This document shows, piece after piece, positions 14,083-64,000 of a stretch of 64,000 nt of DNA (the first letter of the stretch is position 1; each line of letters starts with the position of its first letter). The DNA is from Roseateles koreensis. Its GTDB lineage: Bacteria; Pseudomonadota; Gammaproteobacteria; Burkholderiales; Burkholderiaceae_C. The notes beneath the pieces are model-generated. The model saw only the letters and a program-made list of their open reading frames with translations, searched no databases and was not told where the DNA came from. The position numbers and the translations under genes are program-made. Location: NCBI RefSeq assembly GCF_028595305.1, contig NZ_JAQQXS010000018.1:1-64000 (forward strand), given 5' to 3'.

Positions 14083-14886
14083 GTGAACCTATTCAACTTC
14101 GCTCAAGATTTAAAGCCATTATTCTTGACGCTGCTGCTGCCACCGACCCCCTTTCTCGCCCTGCTGTTGCTGGGCGCCGTGGCGATGCGGCGTGGCCGCT
14201 GGCCAAGCCGACTGGCCCTGGGCCTCGGCGCTTTGGGCATTTGGCTCAGTTGCACGGAAGGATTCGCACAATTCTTGGCAGAGAAGTTGATCCACGTTCC
14301 GCCCCCCTTGAGTGCGGAGGCACTCGAGGACTTGAAAACCCAAGCCAAAGGCGAACGAAAAGTTGCAGTCCTTGTGCTCGGAGGGGGCGCACGCAATCTA
14401 TCGCCGGAGTACCATGCCCCCGCCCTGAAACCCATTACCGAAGAGCGACTGCGATACGGCGCCTGGGTGGCCAAAACAATTCAAGCCCCACTCGGATTTT
14501 CCGGGGGGATTGGTTGGGGTGCGGCGCACCTGCGTATCGCGGAAGCAGTTGTGGCGCATGAGTCCGCCCAAAACACCTACGGCGTCCCGCTGCGCTGGTC
14601 TGAAAGCCGCTCGCGCGACACCCGAGAAAATGCAGAATTGACGCTGCCTATGCTTCAAGCAGATGGCGTGCAGACAGTCATCCTGGTCACGCATGACCTG
14701 CACATGCGCCGGGCAATGCGCGCCTTTTCAAAAGCCGCAACCGGCCAATTCACCTTCATCGCCGCCCCGGTCGGGCTCCGCAGAGAAACCGAATTTTCTT
14801 GGCAAGATTGGTGTCCAAGCGAAGAAGGCTTGCCCCGAGTCCGCTACGCGGTCTATGAATGGCTGGGGCTATTGGCTGGGCATTGA
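14083..14886 (+). CDS. YdcF/ElyC-family (DUF218) membrane protein
   Basis: 267 residues opening on a GTG codon. Two N-terminal hydrophobic segments (about 10-32 and 42-60) are followed by a DUF218 domain: VAVLVLGGGAR, then FSGGIGWG, RSRDTRENAELT and VILVTHDLHMRRAM. Members such as ElyC act in envelope biogenesis at the inner membrane, though the chemistry is undefined. Expressed divergently from the AsmA-like gene, it may share an envelope role. Its last 34 nt overlap the convergent DHH gene. Confidence 0.8.
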   Translation: MNLFNFAQDLKPLFLTLLLPPTPFLALLLLGAVAMRRGRWPSRLALGLGALGIWLSCTEGFAQFLAEKLIHVPPPLSAEALEDLKTQAKGERKVAVLVLGGGARNLSPEYHAPALKPITEERLRYGAWVAKTIQAPLGFSGGIGWGAAHLRIAEAVVAHESAQNTYGVPLRWSESRSRDTRENAELTLPMLQADGVQTVILVTHDLHMRRAMRAFSKAATGQFTFIAAPVGLRRETEFSWQDWCPSEEGLPRVRYAVYEWLGLLAGH

Positions 14887-15818: not shown

Positions 15819-16490
15819 AGGGCGTGAATTGTCACCGCACTTGACCCTCACCGGGTGTCTCCAGGACGAACGGTTGCACTCAACCCCAAGAAGCCCAAAA
15901 GCAGCCTGGTTACTCGCCCCCCATATATGCCCCCAAGGCCCATCGGATACCCGCAGCGTGCGCCGCCTGGAAGCGCCATCACCCAGCGTGCGCACCGCAA
16001 CCTGGGCGTGCCTCTGCGGTCAGTAGGCTTTGCCGCAGTACGTGGTCGAACATCGCTGTGAAGTCTTCAACGGGGCGCGCTGCGATCGCCTCACGTCGAA
16101 CGCAAACTCCGAAAACGGGTTCACGATCACCCAGAGCTGAACACCCACCATACCCTTAAGAATTCGACTACTGTCAAGTCTTACACACCCTATTGGGGGG
16201 GGGTTGGCTAAATTCTGGAACTCCATATCAAAATAGAAATCGTGTAATTTCGCGCAGGTTAATTTAAAATTTTCTGGAAAATTATAAAAAATACCCCCAC
16301 TACAGATCGCTGATCTCGAGTATAACGTGCTGCCAAAGGGCACATCAGACTCAGGAGTCGGCCACATTTGTGGCGTGATCATTCTTCTCTGAATACTTTA
16401 TTAACTAGCTTAAATAAATAGGTAGATGGTGGAGGCGATCCATGTTGCCACCCTCCTTTTCTCTGCAACGATGGTAAGCAATAACATTTC
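15819..16490. other. Gene-poor boundary of the AT-rich accessory patch
   Basis: 672 bp with no convincing gene. Up to about 16,140 the base composition matches the chromosome; beyond it the DNA turns AT-rich. A run of nine G lies at 16195-16203. A minus-strand frame near 16020-16160 reads FGVCVRREAIAARPVEDF and looks like the tail of a lost gene, but it has no start. A 22-codon frame with a weak AGGT site (16426-16494) ends in TTGA and overlaps the TTG of the next ORF. No att-like copy of the ssrA end was found here. Confidence 0.45.
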
Positions 16491-16850
16491 TTGAGTCTCA
16501 ACCTGCTTGTATCGATTCCAGAAAATTTTTTGCCGCCTCAATTTTATATCGATGAGGATTCTCTGAAGATTATTTTGTTTCCTGAAGTAAATACAGCTTC
16601 GAAGCGACTGACCTTGCTTAAACTGGCAAGTTTAATCGGCAATATAAATACTTTAGATTTACTAACGGAAACCATTTCAGGAACCAATTGTTTTAGAACC
16701 AAGGTGGGCGCGGCAAAAGCTGCAATGGCGCTTATGCCGATTGAGTCTCATGATTCATTCAAGGGAAGCCTCGGCTTCGATCCAACCTCGCTGGATGTGT
16801 CGATCGCATCTGGATATGGACGTGAACAAACAATTCCTCGTCAGATTTGA
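16491..16850 (+). CDS. Hypothetical protein in the AT-rich patch
   Basis: A 119-residue open frame that I do not recognise. It uses AT-rich codons (TTA, ATA) like the following gene and unlike the rest of the window, so it plausibly arrived with it. The only start is a TTG at 16491, overlapping the TGA of a 22-codon frame (TTGA); no good ribosome site is seen. No signal peptide or membrane helix. It lies 89 nt before the MutS-like gene and may be its operon partner. It could also be a decayed fragment. Confidence 0.4.
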   Translation: MSLNLLVSIPENFLPPQFYIDEDSLKIILFPEVNTASKRLTLLKLASLIGNINTLDLLTETISGTNCFRTKVGAAKAAMALMPIESHDSFKGSLGFDPTSLDVSIASGYGREQTIPRQI

Positions 16851-16939
16851 AAATATCTGACTCTGAAATTTGATGCCACCTCCATTCAATTCAGTCGCAA
16901 TGACTTCATTTGTACTTTTTTCCACCTATTCAGGGCATT

Positions 16940-18535
16940 ATGCGAAAATCTTTAGTTTCCTGGATAAAGGCGGTCTTCAGTATCTCGAAGGATGTAGTAC
17001 TGAATACTTGCCCAACTTTGATGGCAACCCCTCTGGAGATTGGAGCAATGGTTTCATTGTTGGCTGCCGACGGCATTCGTCAAATTGATGATCAGACATG
17101 GAAGGATCTAGATCTTGATTGTTTTACCAAGCGCGCCTCACAAGATTTGAGCGTTACCGGGCAGATATTCCTGCACCTGCGACTTCGCAACGGAGGCACA
17201 GTGGAGGATATTGCCCGCTTTCGTACCATCTTAGAGTGTTCGATAGATGTTCCTGTATTCTTGGATATATTCACCAAGATGCGTGCTGCTCCCGTTAACA
17301 TCTGCACTCCACTTTTTGTCTCGAATTTTTTCGCTGCCCCTGCATTAGGCAGGTTAGCGTGGATTCCCATCCCGCTGCTAGCCGCCTCTATGTTGCTATT
17401 AAAATTCTCGCTGTTTGGCTGGCTGGGTGTGGTATGTTCACTCACCTTCTCCGCACTCATTTCTATTCGACTCCATCTTTCGATGAAGTCTTGGCATCAG
17501 CAGCGAGAAGTACTTTTGAACGCAATTGTCGCAGCTCGTCTGATTAGAGTTCAATTACCTGGTGAAATACTGTCTCGATTGAATCTACCCACAGAAAATC
17601 AGCTTGACGAATTGCAGAGTCAATTTCGTTCGACTATCTGGGGCCGTTTTGATGGCGTAGCGGAGTACGCCAACCTTCTATTTCTTACTCAATACACGGA
17701 GATGTACCGCCAACTAAAGGCCATCAAAGTTCAAAAACAAACGTTTCGCGAACTTGTAAAATCGCTCAGTGCCTTTGAGGCTGACTTGGGTATCCTAAAT
17801 GACGCACAGAAGAATAGTTTGACTCTTTCTTTGGTTGGTTCGGCAACTCTGGATCAGATTGTTCTATGTGGCCTCCAAAACCCTTTGCTGCCATCTGGTG
17901 CGCCCATGTCTATTGAGTTTAATAACAAAGGAATGTTACTTACAGGCAAGAATGGTATCGGCAAGAGCACACTTTTGCGAACGATTGGCATCAGCGTTGT
18001 ACTTCATCGAGCCTTCGGCGTTGCGTATGCAAACCAAGCTCGAATTGGCTGTAATTTTGTGATGAGCAGTATGCGTATTGATGACAGCCTAGTTTTTGGC
18101 GATAGTTCTCATGTTGCTGAAGCCAAAAGGATTCGGGACATGATTGCGTTTGACGGCGCTGAAAACGGTTGTTTGTACATCATCGACGAAGTCTTCAATG
18201 CGACGAATTATATCGAGGCCGTTGCAGCAGCTGTCCCGGCACTTTATCGCCTGGCGAATCGCGGGCTTTTGTTAGTCTCGACTCATAACCTTATTTATGT
18301 ACCTCTTTTACGCGGAATTCTGCAGCCGATGAAACTAGAAGCTGCGCATGACGGTTTCCGCATTTTGGAGAATGGCGTCATGGGTGAGACCAATGGACTC
18401 GACATTCTTGAGGAAATTGGCTTTGATGAGCGCCTTGTTCGGCAATCTCGGCTGCTAGCTGCTAGGCTAGAGGAGATGCTGGTAAATCCAGACGAAGCAC
18501 ATTTGCTCACCATTGGTAAACTTGTACAGCGCTGA
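16940..18535 (+). CDS. Membrane-anchored MutS-like ATPase
   Basis: 531 residues related to the ATPase domain (domain V) of MutS. The N-terminal segment IDDQTWKDLDLD (near residue 50) and a double membrane region (about 138-178) match the arrangement of membrane-bound MutS-related proteins best known from Bacteroidetes. Walker A is GKNGIGKST (336-344), the MutS-type segment SSMRIDDSL (about 376-384) follows, and Walker B CLYIIDE (411-417) leads to STHNL. Clamp, connector and mismatch-recognition domains of true MutS are absent, so ordinary mismatch repair is unlikely. The ATG at 16940 has AGGG 5 nt upstream; a TTG at 16910 is an alternative. It is AT-rich against its surroundings, in a patch beside ssrA. 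Confidence 0.75.
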   Translation: MRKSLVSWIKAVFSISKDVVLNTCPTLMATPLEIGAMVSLLAADGIRQIDDQTWKDLDLDCFTKRASQDLSVTGQIFLHLRLRNGGTVEDIARFRTILECSIDVPVFLDIFTKMRAAPVNICTPLFVSNFFAAPALGRLAWIPIPLLAASMLLLKFSLFGWLGVVCSLTFSALISIRLHLSMKSWHQQREVLLNAIVAARLIRVQLPGEILSRLNLPTENQLDELQSQFRSTIWGRFDGVAEYANLLFLTQYTEMYRQLKAIKVQKQTFRELVKSLSAFEADLGILNDAQKNSLTLSLVGSATLDQIVLCGLQNPLLPSGAPMSIEFNNKGMLLTGKNGIGKSTLLRTIGISVVLHRAFGVAYANQARIGCNFVMSSMRIDDSLVFGDSSHVAEAKRIRDMIAFDGAENGCLYIIDEVFNATNYIEAVAAAVPALYRLANRGLLLVSTHNLIYVPLLRGILQPMKLEAAHDGFRILENGVMGETNGLDILEEIGFDERLVRQSRLLAARLEEMLVNPDEAHLLTIGKLVQR

Positions 18536-18784
18536 ACATGCCCCTCGCGCGCAGCCAATCCACCAAACTTAAACCATTCCTGGACATAATATATTTTGCA
18601 AGCTGTTGATTTATTTGAATAAATTTCACTCAACAAGATTGCCTCAGACGGTTTTAATACTGTGAATTCATCCCGTGCCCTACGCTGGAGTTGTTGGATC
18701 GCATTCATTCGGACGAGTTCGCGCAATTGGCGCGGCACCCCAACTAGAAACAAGGCAAAGGACAGCCGCAAGGACTGCCCGTAG
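18536..18784. other. Gene debris downstream of the MutS-like gene
   Basis: No intact gene is seen. Around 18657-18741 one frame reads LELLDRIHSDEFAQLARHPN before a stop and has the codon style of the host. It has no start codon and follows an in-frame stop, so it looks like the tail of a deleted gene. The first 130 bp are AT-rich. Confidence 0.35.
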
Positions 18785-19168
18785 CTCCAAGAAGATTACG
18801 CTGTACTGTGCGCACGCCATTTTTACTTCAAGCTTCTCGGCCAGGATCAGGACTCATTCCTCGTCCATGAGAACGTCTACCTGATCGAGGCCGAGGATGA
18901 TGATCAAGCCACTAAGGCAGCGGCTGAGATTGGCAAGAACAACGAAGATGCCGGCGACGATGGGCACCTTGAACTCAACGAGCAAAAAGCGGCTTATCTC
19001 TTTGCTGGCATCCGAAAGGTCATCGAGGTAGAACCGAGCCCTGTCCCGGCAAGTGCAGCGGGGCTGATCGGGTTGGAGTTGAGCTATTCAGAGTTCGAGG
19101 TCGATACCCTAGACCAGGTTCTCGCTCTTGCCTGTGGCGACATGATTGAAGTCTTGTACAGGGAATGA
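18785..19168 (+). pseudogene. 5'-truncated DUF4288-like protein gene
   Basis: An open frame of 127 codons running from just after an in-frame TAG to TGA at 19166. The product reads EDYAVLCARHFYFKLLGQDQ, then ENVYLIEAEDDDQATKAA and, later, KAAYLFAGIRKVIEV. This strand/helix order resembles DUF4288-type proteins. No ATG, GTG or TTG exists in a position that would include the conserved start, so the gene appears to have lost its 5' end. It lies in the accessory patch between the MutS-like gene and ssrA. Confidence 0.45.
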
Positions 19169-19404
19169 TGTTCACACCCAAGGCATCCGCCTCGAAGTCG
19201 CGCAGGACGTTCTGGGCGCACTTCTCGCCCACTAGTCCGAAGCAGCGGCGCAAGCGCTGGAGGCCGCAAACCCCGAACCCGACCATCTGGCCGAGATTAA
19301 GGTCAAGCAGCGCAAATTGCGCGCCCTGCCCTTGGGGCCAGTTACCCGCAGAGCTACCCACACGCATGCTGGATGTATGGGCGTCGATATGACCCTATGC
19401 GGAC
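19169..19404. other. Degenerate coding remnant next to ssrA
   Basis: One plus-strand frame reads GIRLEVAQDVLGALLAH, then a stop, then SEAAAQALEAANPEPDHLAEIKVKQ cut by the stop into two parts. It looks like a decayed helical protein rather than a live gene. It ends just before the ssrA terminator. Confidence 0.35.
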
Positions 19405-19443
19405 AAGAAAAAGGCCCTAAGTCGTTGATTTACTTAGGGCCTT
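19405..19443 (-). terminator. Rho-independent terminator of ssrA
   Basis: On the minus strand a 12 bp stem, AAGGCCCTAAGT pairing with ACTTAGGGCCTT (19432-19443 and 19411-19422), with a 9 nt loop, is followed by TTTTTCTT. It starts about 31 nt after the CCA end of tmRNA. Confidence 0.9.
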
Positions 19444-19474
19444 GGTCGTTTACGCACCTATGCGTGCGGGTAAG

Positions 19475-19847
19475 TGGTGGAGCCGGCGGGAATTGAACCC
19501 GCGTCCGCAAACCATCACCGGGCAGTTCTACATACTTAGCCGTCTGATTTAAATCTCACGGGCCAGATCGCGCAGCGGCACGCTATCTTTCCCGCCAGTC
19601 ACTTAATCTCGTTCTGTACCGAGTAACCCGATCCAAAACCAGCCCATGTGAATGACTTCTCAGCCTGTTGTCTTACGACTTGGGCCCGGCCCATGGGCCA
19701 ACCGTTGAGAAGCTCACGCGCAATTAAGCGGCGAGTGCGAACGTAGAGTCGTTTGCAGTTACTTTGTTTCCAGTGGTTTTACGAGCGAACTGGTGCTCGG
19801 TATGCCCTACTCCGGATCCGCATCCACGTCGAAACCTGGTCGGCCCC
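19475..19847 (-). ncRNA. ssrA: Transfer-messenger RNA (tmRNA)
   Basis: A 373 nt one-piece tmRNA that rescues stalled ribosomes with SmpB. The 5' end GGGGCCG pairs with CGGCUCC just before the 3' CCA (one G-U pair), closing the tRNA-like acceptor stem. The T-arm sequence GGTTCAATTCCCGCC is present. The tag frame at 19724-19756 reads ANDSTFALAA then TAA, a normal betaproteobacterial tag. It follows gph by 13 nt on the same strand and ends in a strong terminator. Its 3' end is a classic integration site for mobile islands, and an AT-rich patch lies directly beyond it. Confidence 0.97.
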
Positions 19848-57962: not shown

Positions 57963-58343
57963 TCAGCGCGGCTCGGCCGATGCTTTGGCCGATGCTTCGG
58001 CCGCTGCCGGGTCAGCGGGCAAGCCGCATTGCGATGGCAGCTTCAGGTGCAAGCCGGCCTTGGCCAGGAGGTTGGCCGACACCGGCGCTGTGACAAACAA
58101 GAACAAGGTGATGAGCAACTCGTGCAGGCCACGCCCACCTTGTGTCCAGTGGACCGCCAAGCTAGCCAGCAACACGCCGCCCACGCCCAGGGTCGTGGCC
58201 TTGGTCGGTGCGTGCAGGCGCATGAAAAAATCTGAAAAACGCAGCATCCCGATGGCGCCCACCAGGGAGAAAACGCCGCCGATGACCAGCAGGGTTGCGA
58301 TGGCAATTTGCCAAGCCCAATGCAATTCGTTCAAGGGTGCCAT
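57963..58343 (-). CDS. mrpG: Mrp antiporter subunit G
   Basis: 126 residues, three helices. The segment GAIGMLRFSDFFMRLHAPTKATTLG is the MrpG signature. An Ala-rich tail (AEASAKASAE) ends the protein. Last gene of the Mrp (Pha) Na+/H+ antiporter operon, 4 nt after mrpF. Confidence 0.93.
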   Translation of the reverse strand: MAPLNELHWAWQIAIATLLVIGGVFSLVGAIGMLRFSDFFMRLHAPTKATTLGVGGVLLASLAVHWTQGGRGLHELLITLFLFVTAPVSANLLAKAGLHLKLPSQCGLPADPAAAEASAKASAEPR

Positions 58344-58347
58344 CCGC

Positions 58348-58644
58348 TCACTCCATCACCGTGCCACGGCACAAGTAACGCGCTAGCGCTGCGGTAGAGA
58401 CGAAGCCCAGCAAGGCGACGATCAAGGCAGCCTCGAAAAGCATCTCGTTGCCCCAGCGGATTCCCAGCAAAACCACCAGCGCCACGACGTTGATGTAGAG
58501 CGTGTCAAGCGCCATCACCCGATCGGGTGCGCTGGGGCCTCGCAGCAGTCGCCACCCACACATCAGCATGGCCAAGCCAACGGCCGCACTGGCAAAGTCG
58601 AGCGCCCCGGACAAAAAAGGCTGGGCGTTTGAAAAAAGCATCAT
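58348..58644 (-). CDS. mrpF: Mrp antiporter subunit F
   Basis: 98 residues with three membrane helices. The motif LRGPSAPDRVMALDTLYINVVAL is MrpF-typical, with the conserved Asp pair. Its start overlaps the mrpE stop by 4 nt. Confidence 0.93.
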   Translation of the reverse strand: MMLFSNAQPFLSGALDFASAAVGLAMLMCGWRLLRGPSAPDRVMALDTLYINVVALVVLLGIRWGNEMLFEAALIVALLGFVSTAALARYLCRGTVME

Positions 58645-59177
58645 GCAAAGATCTCCATCAAAGGCTGCTCATAGCGCTGCTTGATCTGTGCCGCAAGCGC
58701 GGCGGGGTTCGCGCCACCATTCAAGGCGTGGACGAGAAGATGCCCCCGGTCAGGCGTCACCACACAAGACACCGTGCCCGGCGTGGTGGTGATGATGATG
58801 GCCAGCAGCGCCACGGCATCTGCCTGCTGAAGTGCCAAGGGCACCTGCACCCACGCCGGCACGGCCTTCGCCCAGGGCCACAACACCAAGCGGGCAACGG
58901 TCAGATTGGCCACGACGATGTCCCAAAGAACCAGCCCGGCCAAACGCAGCGCCACAAAAAATACGCGCAGACCGCCCGCCTTCAGCACAAGGGCTGGCCC
59001 CAAAAAACCTCGCAACCACCGCGGCACGAGCCAGGCGAACACACAGGCCATCAACAAAGCGGCGGGCGCGATGCTTTGCTGCAGCAGCAACCAAACCGCG
59101 GCCAGCAAGACAGAAAGCCAAGGGTGGGGAAATGCCCCTGTCGGCGATGTCACTGACGGTTTCGACTCAGAGGCCAT
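58641..59177 (-). CDS. mrpE: Mrp antiporter subunit E
   Basis: 178 residues. Two or three N-terminal hydrophobic segments precede a cytoplasmic part with ITTTPGTVSCVVTPDRGHLLVHAL, the MrpE core motif. The Met at 59177 has GAAGG 5 nt upstream and overlaps mrpD by 11 nt; Mets at 59186 and 59204 are alternatives. Confidence 0.9.
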   Translation of the reverse strand: MASESKPSVTSPTGAFPHPWLSVLLAAVWLLLQQSIAPAALLMACVFAWLVPRWLRGFLGPALVLKAGGLRVFFVALRLAGLVLWDIVVANLTVARLVLWPWAKAVPAWVQVPLALQQADAVALLAIIITTTPGTVSCVVTPDRGHLLVHALNGGANPAALAAQIKQRYEQPLMEIFA

Positions 59178-60843
59178 GCTTGCCTTCATCCGTTGGAAAT
59201 GCATCGGGAGCCACCGGAGTGCTCATTGATGGCATCGCTGGCGAGATTAGAGGGGCACCCGCCGGCGGATAGGGCTTGAGCGCATCCCGGCCCATTGCCT
59301 CGCCCAGAGCGGCGCGCCCATAGGCTGCCCGGTCGCCCAATTGCACCGCCGCGGCCGTGGTGTAACGCTGAACGGGGGCGGCGAACACGCTCAAACCTAC
59401 GCTTGCAGCCAACAAGCTGCACGTGGCCAGGATCAGCTTGGGGCTGCTGCCTGCATGGGAGGCTTCGGGGGCGTCGTCGCTCACGTGCCAGAACAAAATG
59501 CTGCCAGCCCGCGCCAAGCCCAGCAAGGTACAAAACCCCACCACCAGCAGTACCGTCCACACCCAGGTTGACCCAGGGTGGTTCGTTGCGGCCTGCAGCA
59601 ACATCAGCTTGCCGATGAAGCCGGGCAGCGGCGGCAGGCCCGCCGTAGAGGCGGCGGCCAGCAACATCATCAAACCCAACAAGACCGGTTGTGCCACTGC
59701 TGAAGCCGGCTGCAACAAGCCCCCGGCGTCACCACGCTGGGCCGCCACCAATTCAGCCAACAAAAAGAGCCCGGCAATGACCAAGGTGCTATTGATCATG
59801 TAGTAGAGGCCCGCACTCCAGGCGAACGGGGTCATCAGCCCGACGCCCACCAGCACGGTGCCGACCGAAGCCACGGTCAGCCACGCCACCAGCCGCGCCA
59901 GGGTGTGGGCCGCCAATGCGCCCAGCACGCCCATCACCGAGGTCGCCAGGGCCAGCGGCAAAAGCAGGGTTTCAACCAGCGGGCCGGCAAATATCACGCC
60001 ATGCACGCGCAAAATCGCATACACCCCCACCTTGGTCATGATGGCGAACAAGGCCGCCACCGGCGGGCTGGCCGTGGCGTAGGTCGCGGGGAGCCACATC
60101 GACAGCGGCATCAGCGCCGCCTTGAAACCGAACACCAGCAAGAGCAACATCGCCGCCAGCTGCACCCAGCTCGCATCGGCCGGCGCCAATTGGGGCACAC
60201 GCAAGGCCAGGTCCGCCATGTTCAGGCTGCCCACCTTGGCGTAGACCAAGCCCAGCCCAATCAAAAACACCGTTGAGGCCACCAGATTCATCGCAACATA
60301 GTGCAAGCCAACCCGAAAGCGTGCCGCCCCCTGCCCGTGCACCATCAGCACATAAGAAGCGATCAACAGCACCTCGAAAAACACGAAAAGATTGAACAAA
60401 TCGCCGCTGACGAAAGCGCCATTCAAGCCCATCAACTGGAACTGGAACAGCGCGTGGAAGTAGCGCCCATGCGCGTCCCACCCCCCGCTGGCGTACCACA
60501 GCACCGGCACGGCCACGCTGGCCGTCAGCAGCAGCATCAAGGCGCCGAGGCGGTCCACCATCAGCGCGATACCAAAGGGGGCGGGCCAAGCCCCCACGTG
60601 ATAACTTATCAACTCCCCGGTGGCTGCGCGGCTGACCAGGGCCAGCGCGACCCCTCCCCCCAAGACCGCTGAGAGCAGCCCCAAACGCCGCGCCCACAGC
60701 AATTTGTGGTGCCCGTGCCCACCATGCGAGTCGCCACCGTGCCCGCCCATCAGCAACAGGGCAACACCGGTCAAGGCCGGCAATAGAACCGGCAGCACCG
60801 GGAGCATCGGCCAACCCAAGACTTGCAGCAGCCACGCGTTCAT
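59167..60843 (-). CDS. mrpD: Mrp antiporter subunit D
   Basis: A 558-residue relative of complex I NuoL/M/N proton-channel subunits, with about 14 helices. GLNGAFVSGDLFNLFVFFEVLL and FGFKAALMPLSMWLPATYATA hold the conserved Glu and Lys of the ion path. A His-rich loop (HGGDSHGGHGHH) near residue 35-46 is unusual. The start overlaps mrpC by 4 nt. Confidence 0.94.
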   Translation of the reverse strand: MNAWLLQVLGWPMLPVLPVLLPALTGVALLLMGGHGGDSHGGHGHHKLLWARRLGLLSAVLGGGVALALVSRAATGELISYHVGAWPAPFGIALMVDRLGALMLLLTASVAVPVLWYASGGWDAHGRYFHALFQFQLMGLNGAFVSGDLFNLFVFFEVLLIASYVLMVHGQGAARFRVGLHYVAMNLVASTVFLIGLGLVYAKVGSLNMADLALRVPQLAPADASWVQLAAMLLLLVFGFKAALMPLSMWLPATYATASPPVAALFAIMTKVGVYAILRVHGVIFAGPLVETLLLPLALATSVMGVLGALAAHTLARLVAWLTVASVGTVLVGVGLMTPFAWSAGLYYMINSTLVIAGLFLLAELVAAQRGDAGGLLQPASAVAQPVLLGLMMLLAAASTAGLPPLPGFIGKLMLLQAATNHPGSTWVWTVLLVVGFCTLLGLARAGSILFWHVSDDAPEASHAGSSPKLILATCSLLAASVGLSVFAAPVQRYTTAAAVQLGDRAAYGRAALGEAMGRDALKPYPPAGAPLISPAMPSMSTPVAPDAFPTDEGKHGL

Positions 60844-61217
60844 GCGCCCTCGCCTTCTGAGTTCGCCACGCCGCCGGTGCTCGGGTCCGGCTGCCCATCC
60901 ACATGGTCTGAGCCGCTCTCGAACCGGCCGCGTACCGCCAGGCTGAGCAAAAAGGCAGTGGTAGCAAAGCCGATCACGATGGCCGTCAGCGCCAGCGCCT
61001 GAGGCAAGGGGTCGGCCATCACGGCCGCGCCGCTACCCAGAATTGCCGGGGCCGCCATCCACAAGCGCCCCATGGCGAACAAGAACACATTGACCACATA
61101 GCCCAAGAGGCTCAGGCCCAGCACGACTTGAAAGCTGCGCCCTTGCAGCAGCAAATACACCCCGCAGGCAGTGACCCACCCCAAGCCGGTGGCCAGCAAA
61201 AATTCCATGCTCAGCAT
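60840..61217 (-). CDS. mrpC: Mrp antiporter subunit C
   Basis: 125 residues, NuoK-like, with three helices; GLSLLGYVVNVFLFAMG and DPLPQALALTAIVIGFATTAF are the family signatures. The tail is Gly/Ser/acidic. The ATG at 61217 overlaps mrpA by 7 nt; a second Met three codons on is possible. Confidence 0.93.
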   Translation of the reverse strand: MLSMEFLLATGLGWVTACGVYLLLQGRSFQVVLGLSLLGYVVNVFLFAMGRLWMAAPAILGSGAAVMADPLPQALALTAIVIGFATTAFLLSLAVRGRFESGSDHVDGQPDPSTGGVANSEGEGA

Positions 61218-64000
61218 GACGCGCCCTCCCCGCCCTTGCTGGCGTGCGCAAATGACGACAACATCAACATCGTCGCGCCCACCACCATGATGTAAACGCC
61301 CAGATCAAACGCGGCGGCAGACGCCAGCGGAATTTCACCCAAAAACTCCAGACCAGGCACGCTCGGGTGCCCATGGGCACTGGTCAAAAACGGTTGGCCG
61401 AACAAGAAACTGGCGATGCCCGTCAGGCTCGCAATACCCAGCCCGAGGCCCAGCCAACGCACATAGCGTCCGCCCGAGCGCGCGTGCAACAAAGCTTCGG
61501 CCCGCTGCTGGCCCAGCGCCATGTACTGCAGAATCAGCGCGGCCGCTGTGATCAGGCCCGCAATAAACCCCCCGCCCGGCTGGTTGTGGCCCCGCCAAAA
61601 AATATGAGCACTCAAGAGCAAAGCCAAAGGCAGCACCCATCGCGCCACGCGCTGTAACAGCAAGGGTTCTTGGCGAAAGCGCCAACGTCGCCCGCCAGCG
61701 TCGCCTGCTGGCCGCTTGGCGCGCATGCCGTCCAGCACCGCCAGCACGCCCAATGCAGCGATCCCAAGCACGGTGATTTCGCCAAACGTGTCGTAGCCCC
61801 GGAAGTCCACCAAAATCACGTTCACCACATTGCTGCCACCGCCCCCCGGCAGCGACTGCGCCAGAAAATACCAGGACAAGCTCTCATGTTGGCTGCTGAG
61901 CACGGCCCAACTGATGGCGGTGACGCCCGCACCGCACGCCAGGGCCAGCGCGGCGGCTCGCCACGGCGGGCCGCCGCGGCGCATTGCTTTCGTCAATGGA
62001 GGCGTCGTTTGTGGAAGCAGCCCCAAGCCCATCAGCAGCATCACGGTCGACACCACATCCACCGTGAGTTGCGTCAGCGCAAGGTCCGGTGCGGACAGTG
62101 ACAAAAACACCAGCGAGCCCATCAAACCGATACCACCGCACAGCACCACGGCCACATAACGCTGAGCCTGCAGGCGCAGTAACACTGCGCCTAGCGCCAT
62201 CAGCAGCAACCACAACGCCACCGCTAAAGGGGGTGCGGGCAACAAGGGCCGAGTGATCGCTGAAGGGGAGAACGGCCAGCTAACCCCACCCGGCCAAAAG
62301 GCCCAGCAGCCCAGCACCAGCGCGGAAACCAGCAAGGTCGCCAAATAGCGTTGCAGGCTACCGCTTTCAAACCGTCGGGTCAGCCCGCCGGCCATCGCCA
62401 GCAAGCCCGCCATGCCAGCATCAAACACCTGCTTGCCACCGACTGAGCGCGGCAAATAGGCATGCAAACGCCCACCACGCTGCAGCCAGAAGTAGAGCAC
62501 CACGCCACCCAGCACCGCCACCAGGCTCATCAGCAAGGGCACGTTGAAGCCATGCCACAGGGCCAGATGCAACGGCGCCAGCGGCTCACCCAACATGGCG
62601 GCTGCGGCTGACTGCAGCAGTGGGCCCACGGTCTGCATGGGGAACAGGCCGACGCCCAGACACACCAGCACCAAAATCAGCACGGGCAGCTTCATGCCCC
62701 AGGGAGGTTCGTGGGGATGAGGCTGGGGCAAATCCCGACTAGGGCCGTTGAAAAATACGTCATACACCAATCGAAGCGAATAGGCGACCGAACACAGCCC
62801 CGCCAAATTGGCGATCAAAGCAATGGTCCACGCAAAATTGCCACCTATGCCGGCATGCAAGGCCTGCTCAAACATCAACTCCTTCGACAAAAATCCGTTG
62901 AAGGGCGGCAAGCCCGCCATGGCAGCACTGGCCAGCAAGCCTAGGCTACCAACCCAGGGCATGACCTGCATCAGCCCGCCAAGGCGGCGCATATCGCGGG
63001 TGCCCGTCTCGTGATCGACGATGCCCGCTGTCATGAAAAGCGCCGCCTTGAAGCTGGCATGGTTCAGGATGTGAAACATCGCCACGGCCGCTGACATGGG
63101 CGAGCGCAAGCCAATCAAAAAGGTGATGAAGCCCAGATGGCTGATGGTGGAATAGGCCAACAGCCCCTTCATGTCATGCTTGAAAATGGCGACGAATGCG
63201 CCAAACGCCATCGTCAACAGGCCCACCGGCGTCACGATGAGCTCAAACAACCCCTCCCCGCCGATCACCGGATACAGGCGAGCCAGCAAAAACAAGCCCG
63301 CCTTCACCATGGTGGCTGAGTGCAGATAGGCGGAAGCCGGCGTCGGCGCCGCCATGGCCTGGGGCAACCAGAAGTGAAACGGGAGTTGTGCACTCTTGGT
63401 GAAGCAGCCGATCAAGATCAAGATCAAGGCGGCCGGATAGCGCGTATCGCTCAACACCGCTTGGCGCAAACTCGGCCCGCCGATGAACATCTGCGACAAA
63501 TCGTAGCTGCCACACATCTGCCCCAGCAAAATCACGCCGGCCAGCAAAGCCAACCCACCGCCGCCGGTCATGGCCAGGGCCATGCGCGCGCCCTCGCTGG
63601 CCTCTGCCTTCTCTCCCCAAAAGCCGACCAACAAAAATGAGGTGATGCTGGTCATCTCCCAGAACACCACCAGCAAGAGCAAATTGTCAGACAGTGCGAT
63701 GCCCAGCATCGCCGCCATGAACACCAGCAACAGGCAATAGAACTTGACCAAGGAATCGGTCGGGCTCAAGTAGAACGCCGCGTACAGCACGATCAGCAAA
63801 CCGATGCCAGTAATCATGCCGCCGAACAGCAAGGAGAGCCCATCGAGCCTGAAGCCCAGGTTCAGCCCGATCGTCGGCACCCAATCTGCATGAAACAGCA
63901 AGACCTGCCCCTGCAGCACCCCTGGCGCTTCTTGCAGGAGCAGCACCAAGGCGGCAGCGGTCACCGCAGCGGCAACCCAGGCCGGCGCAAAACGCCAGGC
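61211..64000 (-). CDS. mrpA: Mrp antiporter subunit A with fused B domain (N-terminus off the edge)
   Basis: At least 929 residues; the frame stays open to the right edge, so some N-terminal residues are missing. The N-terminal NuoL-like part has FWEMTSITSFLLVGFW, FTKSAQLPFHFWLPQAM and LAYSTISHLGFITFLIG. The central part is NuoJ-like (SAPDLALTQLTVDVVSTV). After about residue 780 (counting from the window edge) an MrpB-like domain follows with FWRGHNQPGGGFIAGLITAAALIL. Separate mrpB is therefore absent. First gene seen in the operon. Confidence 0.94.
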   Translation of the reverse strand, partial: AWRFAPAWVAAAVTAAALVLLLQEAPGVLQGQVLLFHADWVPTIGLNLGFRLDGLSLLFGGMITGIGLLIVLYAAFYLSPTDSLVKFYCLLLVFMAAMLGIALSDNLLLLVVFWEMTSITSFLLVGFWGEKAEASEGARMALAMTGGGGLALLAGVILLGQMCGSYDLSQMFIGGPSLRQAVLSDTRYPAALILILIGCFTKSAQLPFHFWLPQAMAAPTPASAYLHSATMVKAGLFLLARLYPVIGGEGLFELIVTPVGLLTMAFGAFVAIFKHDMKGLLAYSTISHLGFITFLIGLRSPMSAAVAMFHILNHASFKAALFMTAGIVDHETGTRDMRRLGGLMQVMPWVGSLGLLASAAMAGLPPFNGFLSKELMFEQALHAGIGGNFAWTIALIANLAGLCSVAYSLRLVYDVFFNGPSRDLPQPHPHEPPWGMKLPVLILVLVCLGVGLFPMQTVGPLLQSAAAAMLGEPLAPLHLALWHGFNVPLLMSLVAVLGGVVLYFWLQRGGRLHAYLPRSVGGKQVFDAGMAGLLAMAGGLTRRFESGSLQRYLATLLVSALVLGCWAFWPGGVSWPFSPSAITRPLLPAPPLAVALWLLLMALGAVLLRLQAQRYVAVVLCGGIGLMGSLVFLSLSAPDLALTQLTVDVVSTVMLLMGLGLLPQTTPPLTKAMRRGGPPWRAAALALACGAGVTAISWAVLSSQHESLSWYFLAQSLPGGGGSNVVNVILVDFRGYDTFGEITVLGIAALGVLAVLDGMRAKRPAGDAGGRRWRFRQEPLLLQRVARWVLPLALLLSAHIFWRGHNQPGGGFIAGLITAAALILQYMALGQQRAEALLHARSGGRYVRWLGLGLGIASLTGIASFLFGQPFLTSAHGHPSVPGLEFLGEIPLASAAAFDLGVYIMVVGATMLMLSSFAHASKGGEGASC

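Follow-up and report, generated by a model that had tools for sequence, protein, structure and literature searches.

A divergent, predicted membrane-anchored MutS-core ATPase encoded on a low-GC insert beside ssrA in Roseateles koreensis

The window analysed here, a stretch of 64,000 nucleotides of Roseateles koreensis (contig NZ_JAQQXS010000018.1), carries a gene whose product almost certainly belongs, as a stand-alone protein, to a widespread family of MutS-core ATPases with a predicted membrane anchor. The family is already in databases as MutS, uncharacterised, and the window copy is a divergent, laterally acquired member of it. Our preferred reading, to which we give a probability of about 45%, predicts a dimeric, ATP-switched clamp at the membrane, with lever arms that would end in the membrane and no role in mismatch repair.

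What makes the family worth testing is its membrane hairpin. Public annotation gives the name 'DNA mismatch repair protein MutS' to proteins that lack the mismatch-binding modules and apparently sit in the membrane, and a correct family name would remove this common mis-annotation. Should the hairpin prove to stand in for the DNA clamp, this would be a further case of the MutS machine used beyond mismatched DNA, after the ribosome-splitting MutS2. Members are present in ordinary bacteria, Janthinobacterium among them, which are open to testing.

Results

The gene and its ATPase motifs

The coordinates of the gene, of the motifs in its product and of the surrounding insert are collected in Table 1. 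The reading frame is open over 531 codons with zero internal stops, and an alternative TTG start at 16910 would lengthen the protein by 10 aa. MutS_V (MutS domain V) is the sole Pfam family above cut-off in the protein (E 9.3e-9; 35.9 bits against a gathering score of 30.2) and also the only one common to all 49 aligned members, each of which matches it at E 0.01.

Table 1. Features of the MutS-core gene, its product and the surrounding insert (positions in the window)
Feature	Position	Strand	Basis or remark
Predicted membrane-anchored MutS-core ATPase gene	16940..18535	+	intact ORF, ATG start, 531 aa
IDDQTW, residues 49-54, start of MutS core domain III	17084..17101	+	MutS2 structural alignments begin here
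Predicted transmembrane hairpin, residues 136-176	17345..17467	+	hydropathy in 49/49; model helices
Walker A GKNGIGKST, residues 336-344	17945..17971	+	sequence; invariant positions
Signature region SSMRIDDSLVFGDS	18065..18106	+	49/49 sequences keep S389 and D382; would extend to the ATP site of the other subunit in a dimer
Walker B IIDE, residues 414-417	18179..18190	+	D416 and E417 invariant
Switch histidine STHN, residues 447-450	18278..18289	+	H449 invariant; aligned with MutS ATHY
Low-GC insert, ~3.5 kb	15845..19397		boundaries approximate; congeners have the DHH gene close to the ssrA terminator
119-aa ORF upstream of the MutS-core gene	16491..16850	+	orphan, inside the insert
Broken DUF4288 gene	18801..19168	+	start codon of the relative not kept; frameshift within a run of T close to the 5' end
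ssrA (tmRNA)	19475..19847	-	ARAGORN, Rfam RF00023; 3' end faces the insert

An earlier note, made from the letters of the window, had read the MutS ATPase motifs GKNGIGKST, SSMRIDDSL, IIDE and STHN in this protein, and each was found where it had been read (SSMRIDDSL at residues 376-384). Their catalytic positions are kept throughout the family: G336, N338, G341, K342, S343, T344, D382, S389, E394, D416, E417, T422, N423, E426 and H449 are identical in 49 of 49 aligned sequences, the window protein included. In the profile comparison, the signature region aligned with MutS AADDLAxxRST. Because the invariant set comprises the residues expected to serve ATP binding, hydrolysis and in-trans signalling, the simplest reading of the sequence is an active, dimeric MutS-type ATPase, both the activity and the dimer being predicted.

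A MutS core with a hydrophobic hairpin, possibly in place of the clamp

The structure prediction suggested in the earlier note returned the MutS core fold. The AlphaFold2 model, built on the 49-sequence alignment, has a mean pLDDT of 88.9 and a pTM of 0.88, and compares with E. coli MutS at VIA Z 28.7 (2.9 A, 401 residues). In the structural alignment with MutS2, window residues 49-51 pair with MutS2 residues 1-2; the IDDQTW motif is therefore where the MutS core begins, and not, as had been thought, a region that replaces the DNA-recognition modules. A start of this type, VDDxTWxDL, is shared with the Bacillota and Bacteroidota cousins.

A chain of 531 aa has room only for the part of MutS from domain III onward. 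As modelled, the protein is a MutS core without the mismatch and connector domains. No Pfam model of MutS domains I-IV, and hence neither the mismatch-binding domain I nor the connector domain II of MutS1, matched the window protein at E<=1, and no Pfam match to the Smr domain was found in it. The family profile matches MutS in the PDB (E 2.5e-26), with coverage confined to the C-terminal half, and its alignment to MutS1 starts only at window residue 241, corresponding to MutS from the end of the clamp region onward. Since the alignment starts so late, the hairpin at residues 136-176 and the long helix at 157-205 that extends it fall at the place of the MutS lever and clamp by chain order. By this order, and by the profile alignment from residue 241, the hairpin would be the equivalent of the MutS clamp.

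The double membrane segment that the earlier note had proposed corresponds to two hydrophobic stretches, at residues 136-154 and 158-176, with mean hydropathies of 1.74 and 1.98. The maximum hydropathy of the hairpin region lies between 1.82 and 2.85 in all 49 sequences, against values of <=1.82 anywhere in six true MutS1 proteins, which makes the hairpin a trait of the family. In the AlphaFold2 model, helices at the hairpin span residues 135-139, 143-155 and 157-205. The hairpin probably inserts in the membrane, hydropathy alone being no proof of insertion.

A membrane-tethered DNA repair or recombination protein would also be built on the MutS fold, and branched DNA is a reported substrate of MutS2 relatives (PMC12292046). 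However, the mismatch and connector domains are absent from the window protein, the clamp domain goes undetected by Pfam, and the lever region (residues 178-294) carries a net charge of +2, near zero. In addition, a complete MutS is encoded on another contig of the same genome, so that mismatch repair is already covered. A function of this kind is thus very improbable in our view.

Proposed mechanism

The preferred reading, an ATP-switched clamp at the membrane, can be set out in steps. By analogy with MutS and MutS2, two copies of the protein would pair and share two ATP sites, with the signature serine S389 of one copy completing the site of the other in trans. Binding of ATP would close the ATPase heads and move the lever helices, which would end in the inner membrane and not around DNA. 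The resulting clamp would work on a protein or nucleoprotein assembly near the membrane, and would not be a mismatch-repair sensor; we leave out a mismatch-repair role because domains I and II are absent and the genome holds a complete MutS elsewhere. A cargo other than DNA would have a precedent, since MutS2 can act on the ribosome instead of on DNA (PMC12292046).

Extended to the whole family, this reading becomes speculative. It would imply a change of use in which the DNA clamp was traded for a membrane hairpin, giving a single-protein, ATP-driven membrane clamp that is kept on chromosomes and is also carried by plasmids and prophages as cargo affecting invading DNA or the envelope. We consider so general a scheme unlikely.

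Comparison with known MutS families

Scores against the NCBIfam models place the window protein far from both classical families, with 20.8 bits against a cut-off of 641.7 for mutS1 and 27.5 bits against a cut-off of 400 for mutS2. MutS2 resembles it in having the core and the ATPase without domains I and II; the differences are the hairpin, which is added in the window protein, and the Smr domain of MutS2, to which the window protein gave no hit. The top NCBIfam match was KamC, a lysine 5,6-aminomutase reactivase (E 2.7e-10), at 39.7 bits against an equivalog cut-off of 300. Ordinary MutS1 scores about 164 bits against KamC, far more than the window protein, so we rejected KamC as a true relative and attribute the match to the shared MutS ATPase only.

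Two groups of proteins, in contrast, share the full layout, and the earlier expectation that uncharacterised membrane relatives of MutS exist was borne out. The closer one is an unnamed subfamily of betaproteobacteria (Oxalobacteraceae, Roseateles, Rubrivivax and Ideonella), with full-length homology to the window protein, the same hairpin, the same GxNGxGKST, TNxxE and HN motif variants and, again like the window protein, no strong N-terminal membrane segment. The window protein departs from it by its long branch and its location on an island. The second group, of the SAOUHSC_02276 type, occurs in Staphylococcus, Clostridia and Bacteroidota and goes under the annotation 'MutS family DNA mismatch repair protein'. 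Its members share the hairpin and the VDDxTWxDL start but, unlike the window protein, mostly have an additional N-terminal membrane segment and carry the motif variants SNASGKST and ATHD.

The two groups belong to one family. An alignment of the betaproteobacterial sequences and an alignment of the Bacillota and Bacteroidota sequences, with zero sequences in common, matched each other in a profile comparison at E 1.2e-51 over 478 columns. The match begins ahead of DDxTW, takes in the hairpin and continues to the end, such that homology covers the protein from VDDxTWxDL, via the hairpin, to the ATPase.

An uncharacterised subfamily, MutS8, was reportedly described by Ogata et al. in 2011. A compact giant-virus protein of 530 aa, annotated as MutS8, ranked third in the viral fold search. 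The literature ties similar proteins to this subfamily: MutS-domain proteins of Cardinium are assigned to MutS8, and the signal peptides predicted in them (PMC5698495) may in fact be N-terminal membrane segments. MutS8 is a candidate affiliation of the family. Likely members of the membrane-MutS family are mentioned in PMC8440226 and PMC5698495. We found no known role for the family, housekeeping or otherwise, and no study of its function in the open-licence literature, although one may exist elsewhere.

A low-GC insert beside ssrA

The earlier note had placed the gene in a laterally acquired patch, and both composition and comparison with congeners agree with this. The GC content is 44-49% over 16-19 kb against about 57-65% in the surroundings, and the GC3 of the MutS-core gene is 0.46 against 0.64-0.80 for gyrA, ubiG, an AsmA-like gene and the ORF at 14083. 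The DHH gene gave a GC3 of 0.47, a value made unreliable by a frame cut at an approximate start. Among 59 related genomes (17 of them congeners), a search at DNA level recovered the flanks but not the insert, the one exception being a DUF4288 match in G003, a genome of another genus. In three of the genomes (G298, G1037 and G1039) the DHH gene lies ~40-150 bp from the ssrA terminator, and the window genome therefore has ~3.5 kb extra at this junction. As the site is empty in congeners, this copy of the MutS-core gene was most likely acquired laterally. The insert DNA had no match in plasmids.

The insert lies downstream of ssrA, outside a terminator-like inverted repeat (19398-19456). Recombination into the 3' end of ssrA with a flanking repeat was considered and rejected, since the far end of the insert showed no direct repeat of the ssrA end and ssrA still has its terminator alongside. 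The stem of this terminator-like element (19407-19444) recurs in the same genome (G000:C1:61875-61912, 95%) and also occurs away from ssrA in the congeners G1037, G013 and G1038; it is possibly a dispersed repeat of terminator-like form.

Little else in the insert is recognisable. Searches of Pfam, NCBIfam, PADLOC, plasmids and 200 family genomes turned up nothing related to the 119-aa ORF, which was accordingly discarded as an operon partner of the MutS-core gene. The broken DUF4288 gene scores 26.0 bits (E 1.2e-5), just below the gathering score of 27. Its intact relative in G003 (L035 4047-4427) lies amid RHS-like genes, which suggests that the fragment is an orphan immunity-type gene.

On the minus strand, an open frame at 18295-18771 overlaps the 3' end of the MutS-core gene and extends beyond it; it reads MNAIQQLQRRARDEFTVLKPSEAILLSEIYSNK... 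and is possibly a gene fragment, with no plasmid match near 18.54-18.77 kb. Far from the insert, the final 6 kb of the window (58001-64000) show an AT skew that climbs to about 0.29-0.41.

Betaproteobacterial relatives and their neighbourhoods

When samples of the family, the class and the phylum were searched at protein level, a true relative came up once within the family (G297) and once within the order (G935). A scan of genome contigs with a three-sequence alignment then returned 60 loci, about 57 of them true members, nearly all from Oxalobacteraceae with the addition of Roseateles, Rubrivivax and Ideonella. L096, L097 and L099 are weak matches among the 60 and not members; in addition, L004 (G446) proved to be an ordinary MutS1 and L002 a chance match. 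The architecture had been thought to occur mostly in Bacteroidetes, a view that is too narrow given a betaproteobacterial subfamily of about 57 genomes, mostly Oxalobacteraceae, and the cousins in Bacillota.

In most Oxalobacteraceae, across many species, the gene occupies one chromosomal place. It is divergent there from a MacA-ABC-FtsX-FtsX-regulator-kinase operon and has an EptA-like gene, often with fusA, on its other side. The neighbourhood analysis that the earlier note had called for thus uncovered stable synteny in this clade and neither a conserved partner gene nor a hint of a cargo: neighbours differ between clades, and outside the Oxalobacteraceae synteny the relatives are single genes in unlike contexts.

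This synteny raises the question of whether the protein takes part in an exporter or antimicrobial-peptide response at the membrane, together with the MacA/ABC/FtsX operon and the two-component system of Oxalobacteraceae. Near the MutS-core gene we counted a MacA-like gene at 36 loci and an ABC gene at 33, usually divergent, and an EptA-like transferase cluster at 38; one copy (L009) also has a two-component system upstream. The association, however, amounts to the synteny of one clade. Copies in Roseateles, Ideonella, Glaciimonas and Undibacterium have different neighbours, and the window lacks the association as well. We regard such a role as improbable, and continue to prefer the ATP-switched membrane clamp.

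Against the betaproteobacterial subfamily, the window protein has 23-29% identity over the whole alignment. A quick tree separates the beta members from the others with full support and puts the window protein at the base of the beta group on a branch of length 1.97; with several long branches in this tree, the beta/other split is its reliable part and the exact place of the window protein is not. At 29 positions that separate the groups, it matches the beta members at 10, the others at 4 and neither at 15, and is hence a divergent member. Position 421, where GTN has become ATN, departs from a family-conserved residue. With so long a branch and such unusual substitutions, the protein's own function may have been altered.

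The same divergence would also be expected of a decaying passenger, that is, a gene with its ORF still open and selection lost in the window strain. A relic of this kind is possible because the adjoining DUF4288 gene is broken and the sequence is divergent, and no other recognised gene is found in the insert. For the S. aureus relative SAOUHSC_02276, carriage isolates with a premature stop are reported (PMC8440226), so the gene can be dispensable. Nevertheless, 531 open codons with all catalytic residues intact speak against decay, and we consider this explanation unlikely.

Distant cousins on chromosomes, plasmids and viral contigs

Distant cousins were found in records of Staphylococcus, Clostridia, Ruminococcus and Bacteroidota and in Listeria-labelled ones. 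The S. aureus copy sits between an ABC-F gene and tsaD in a record that is labelled plasmid and carries chromosomal genes; an S. epidermidis copy sits likewise, in a record labelled phage with the same chromosomal genes. Plasmids of S. epidermidis and S. capitis hold copies too; thirteen Staphylococcus plasmid records match, one of which carries chromosomal genes. On the S. epidermidis plasmid pNuk650 (L117 5209-9016), the cousin precedes an Fst toxin gene and an AIPR family gene. Four viral contigs carry cousins as well, near portal and terminase, holin and amidase, serine integrase, or tape-measure genes and a phage-moron toxin family. Carriage of the cousins by phages is likely, although such contigs can include host flank.

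These mobile copies bear on the defence role, or membrane-coupled handling of DNA, that the earlier note had envisaged. As an anti-phage or anti-plasmid system, a membrane-held clamp would sense or block incoming DNA, or act at the membrane to abort infection, and would have been retained because a small island brought it in. The window copy does lie on an insert beside ssrA, and the plasmid and prophage-linked copies, one adjoining an AIPR gene and others near phage genes, make defence a live alternative. On the other hand, PADLOC gave only weak matches at the P-loop of the window protein (the best, AriA, reached 19.4 bits over a 59-residue stretch there) and no defence model extending beyond it, which leaves the protein outside the anti-phage systems that PADLOC models. 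No recognised defence gene lies inside the insert, and no beta-type copies were found in viral contigs. Moreover, the fixed contexts in Oxalobacteraceae and Staphylococcus argue against a dedicated defence role. Given these stable chromosomal places and an insert in which nothing is recognisable as a defence gene, we hold defence at about one chance in five; what stands of the original proposal is that some members may have an accessory or defence role.

Individual cousins have settings of their own. On one viral contig (L111 1-5147), the cousin lies antisense between the portal and terminase genes, an unusual place for cargo. At L114 2917-6642, on a contig with a tape-measure gene, it lies downstream of two small HicA-like and HicB-like genes, the former matching the phage-moron toxin family. 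In a human-gut contig (L010 1954-4961), the cousin is found just upstream of a CbiD-like gene and other genes of cobalamin synthesis.
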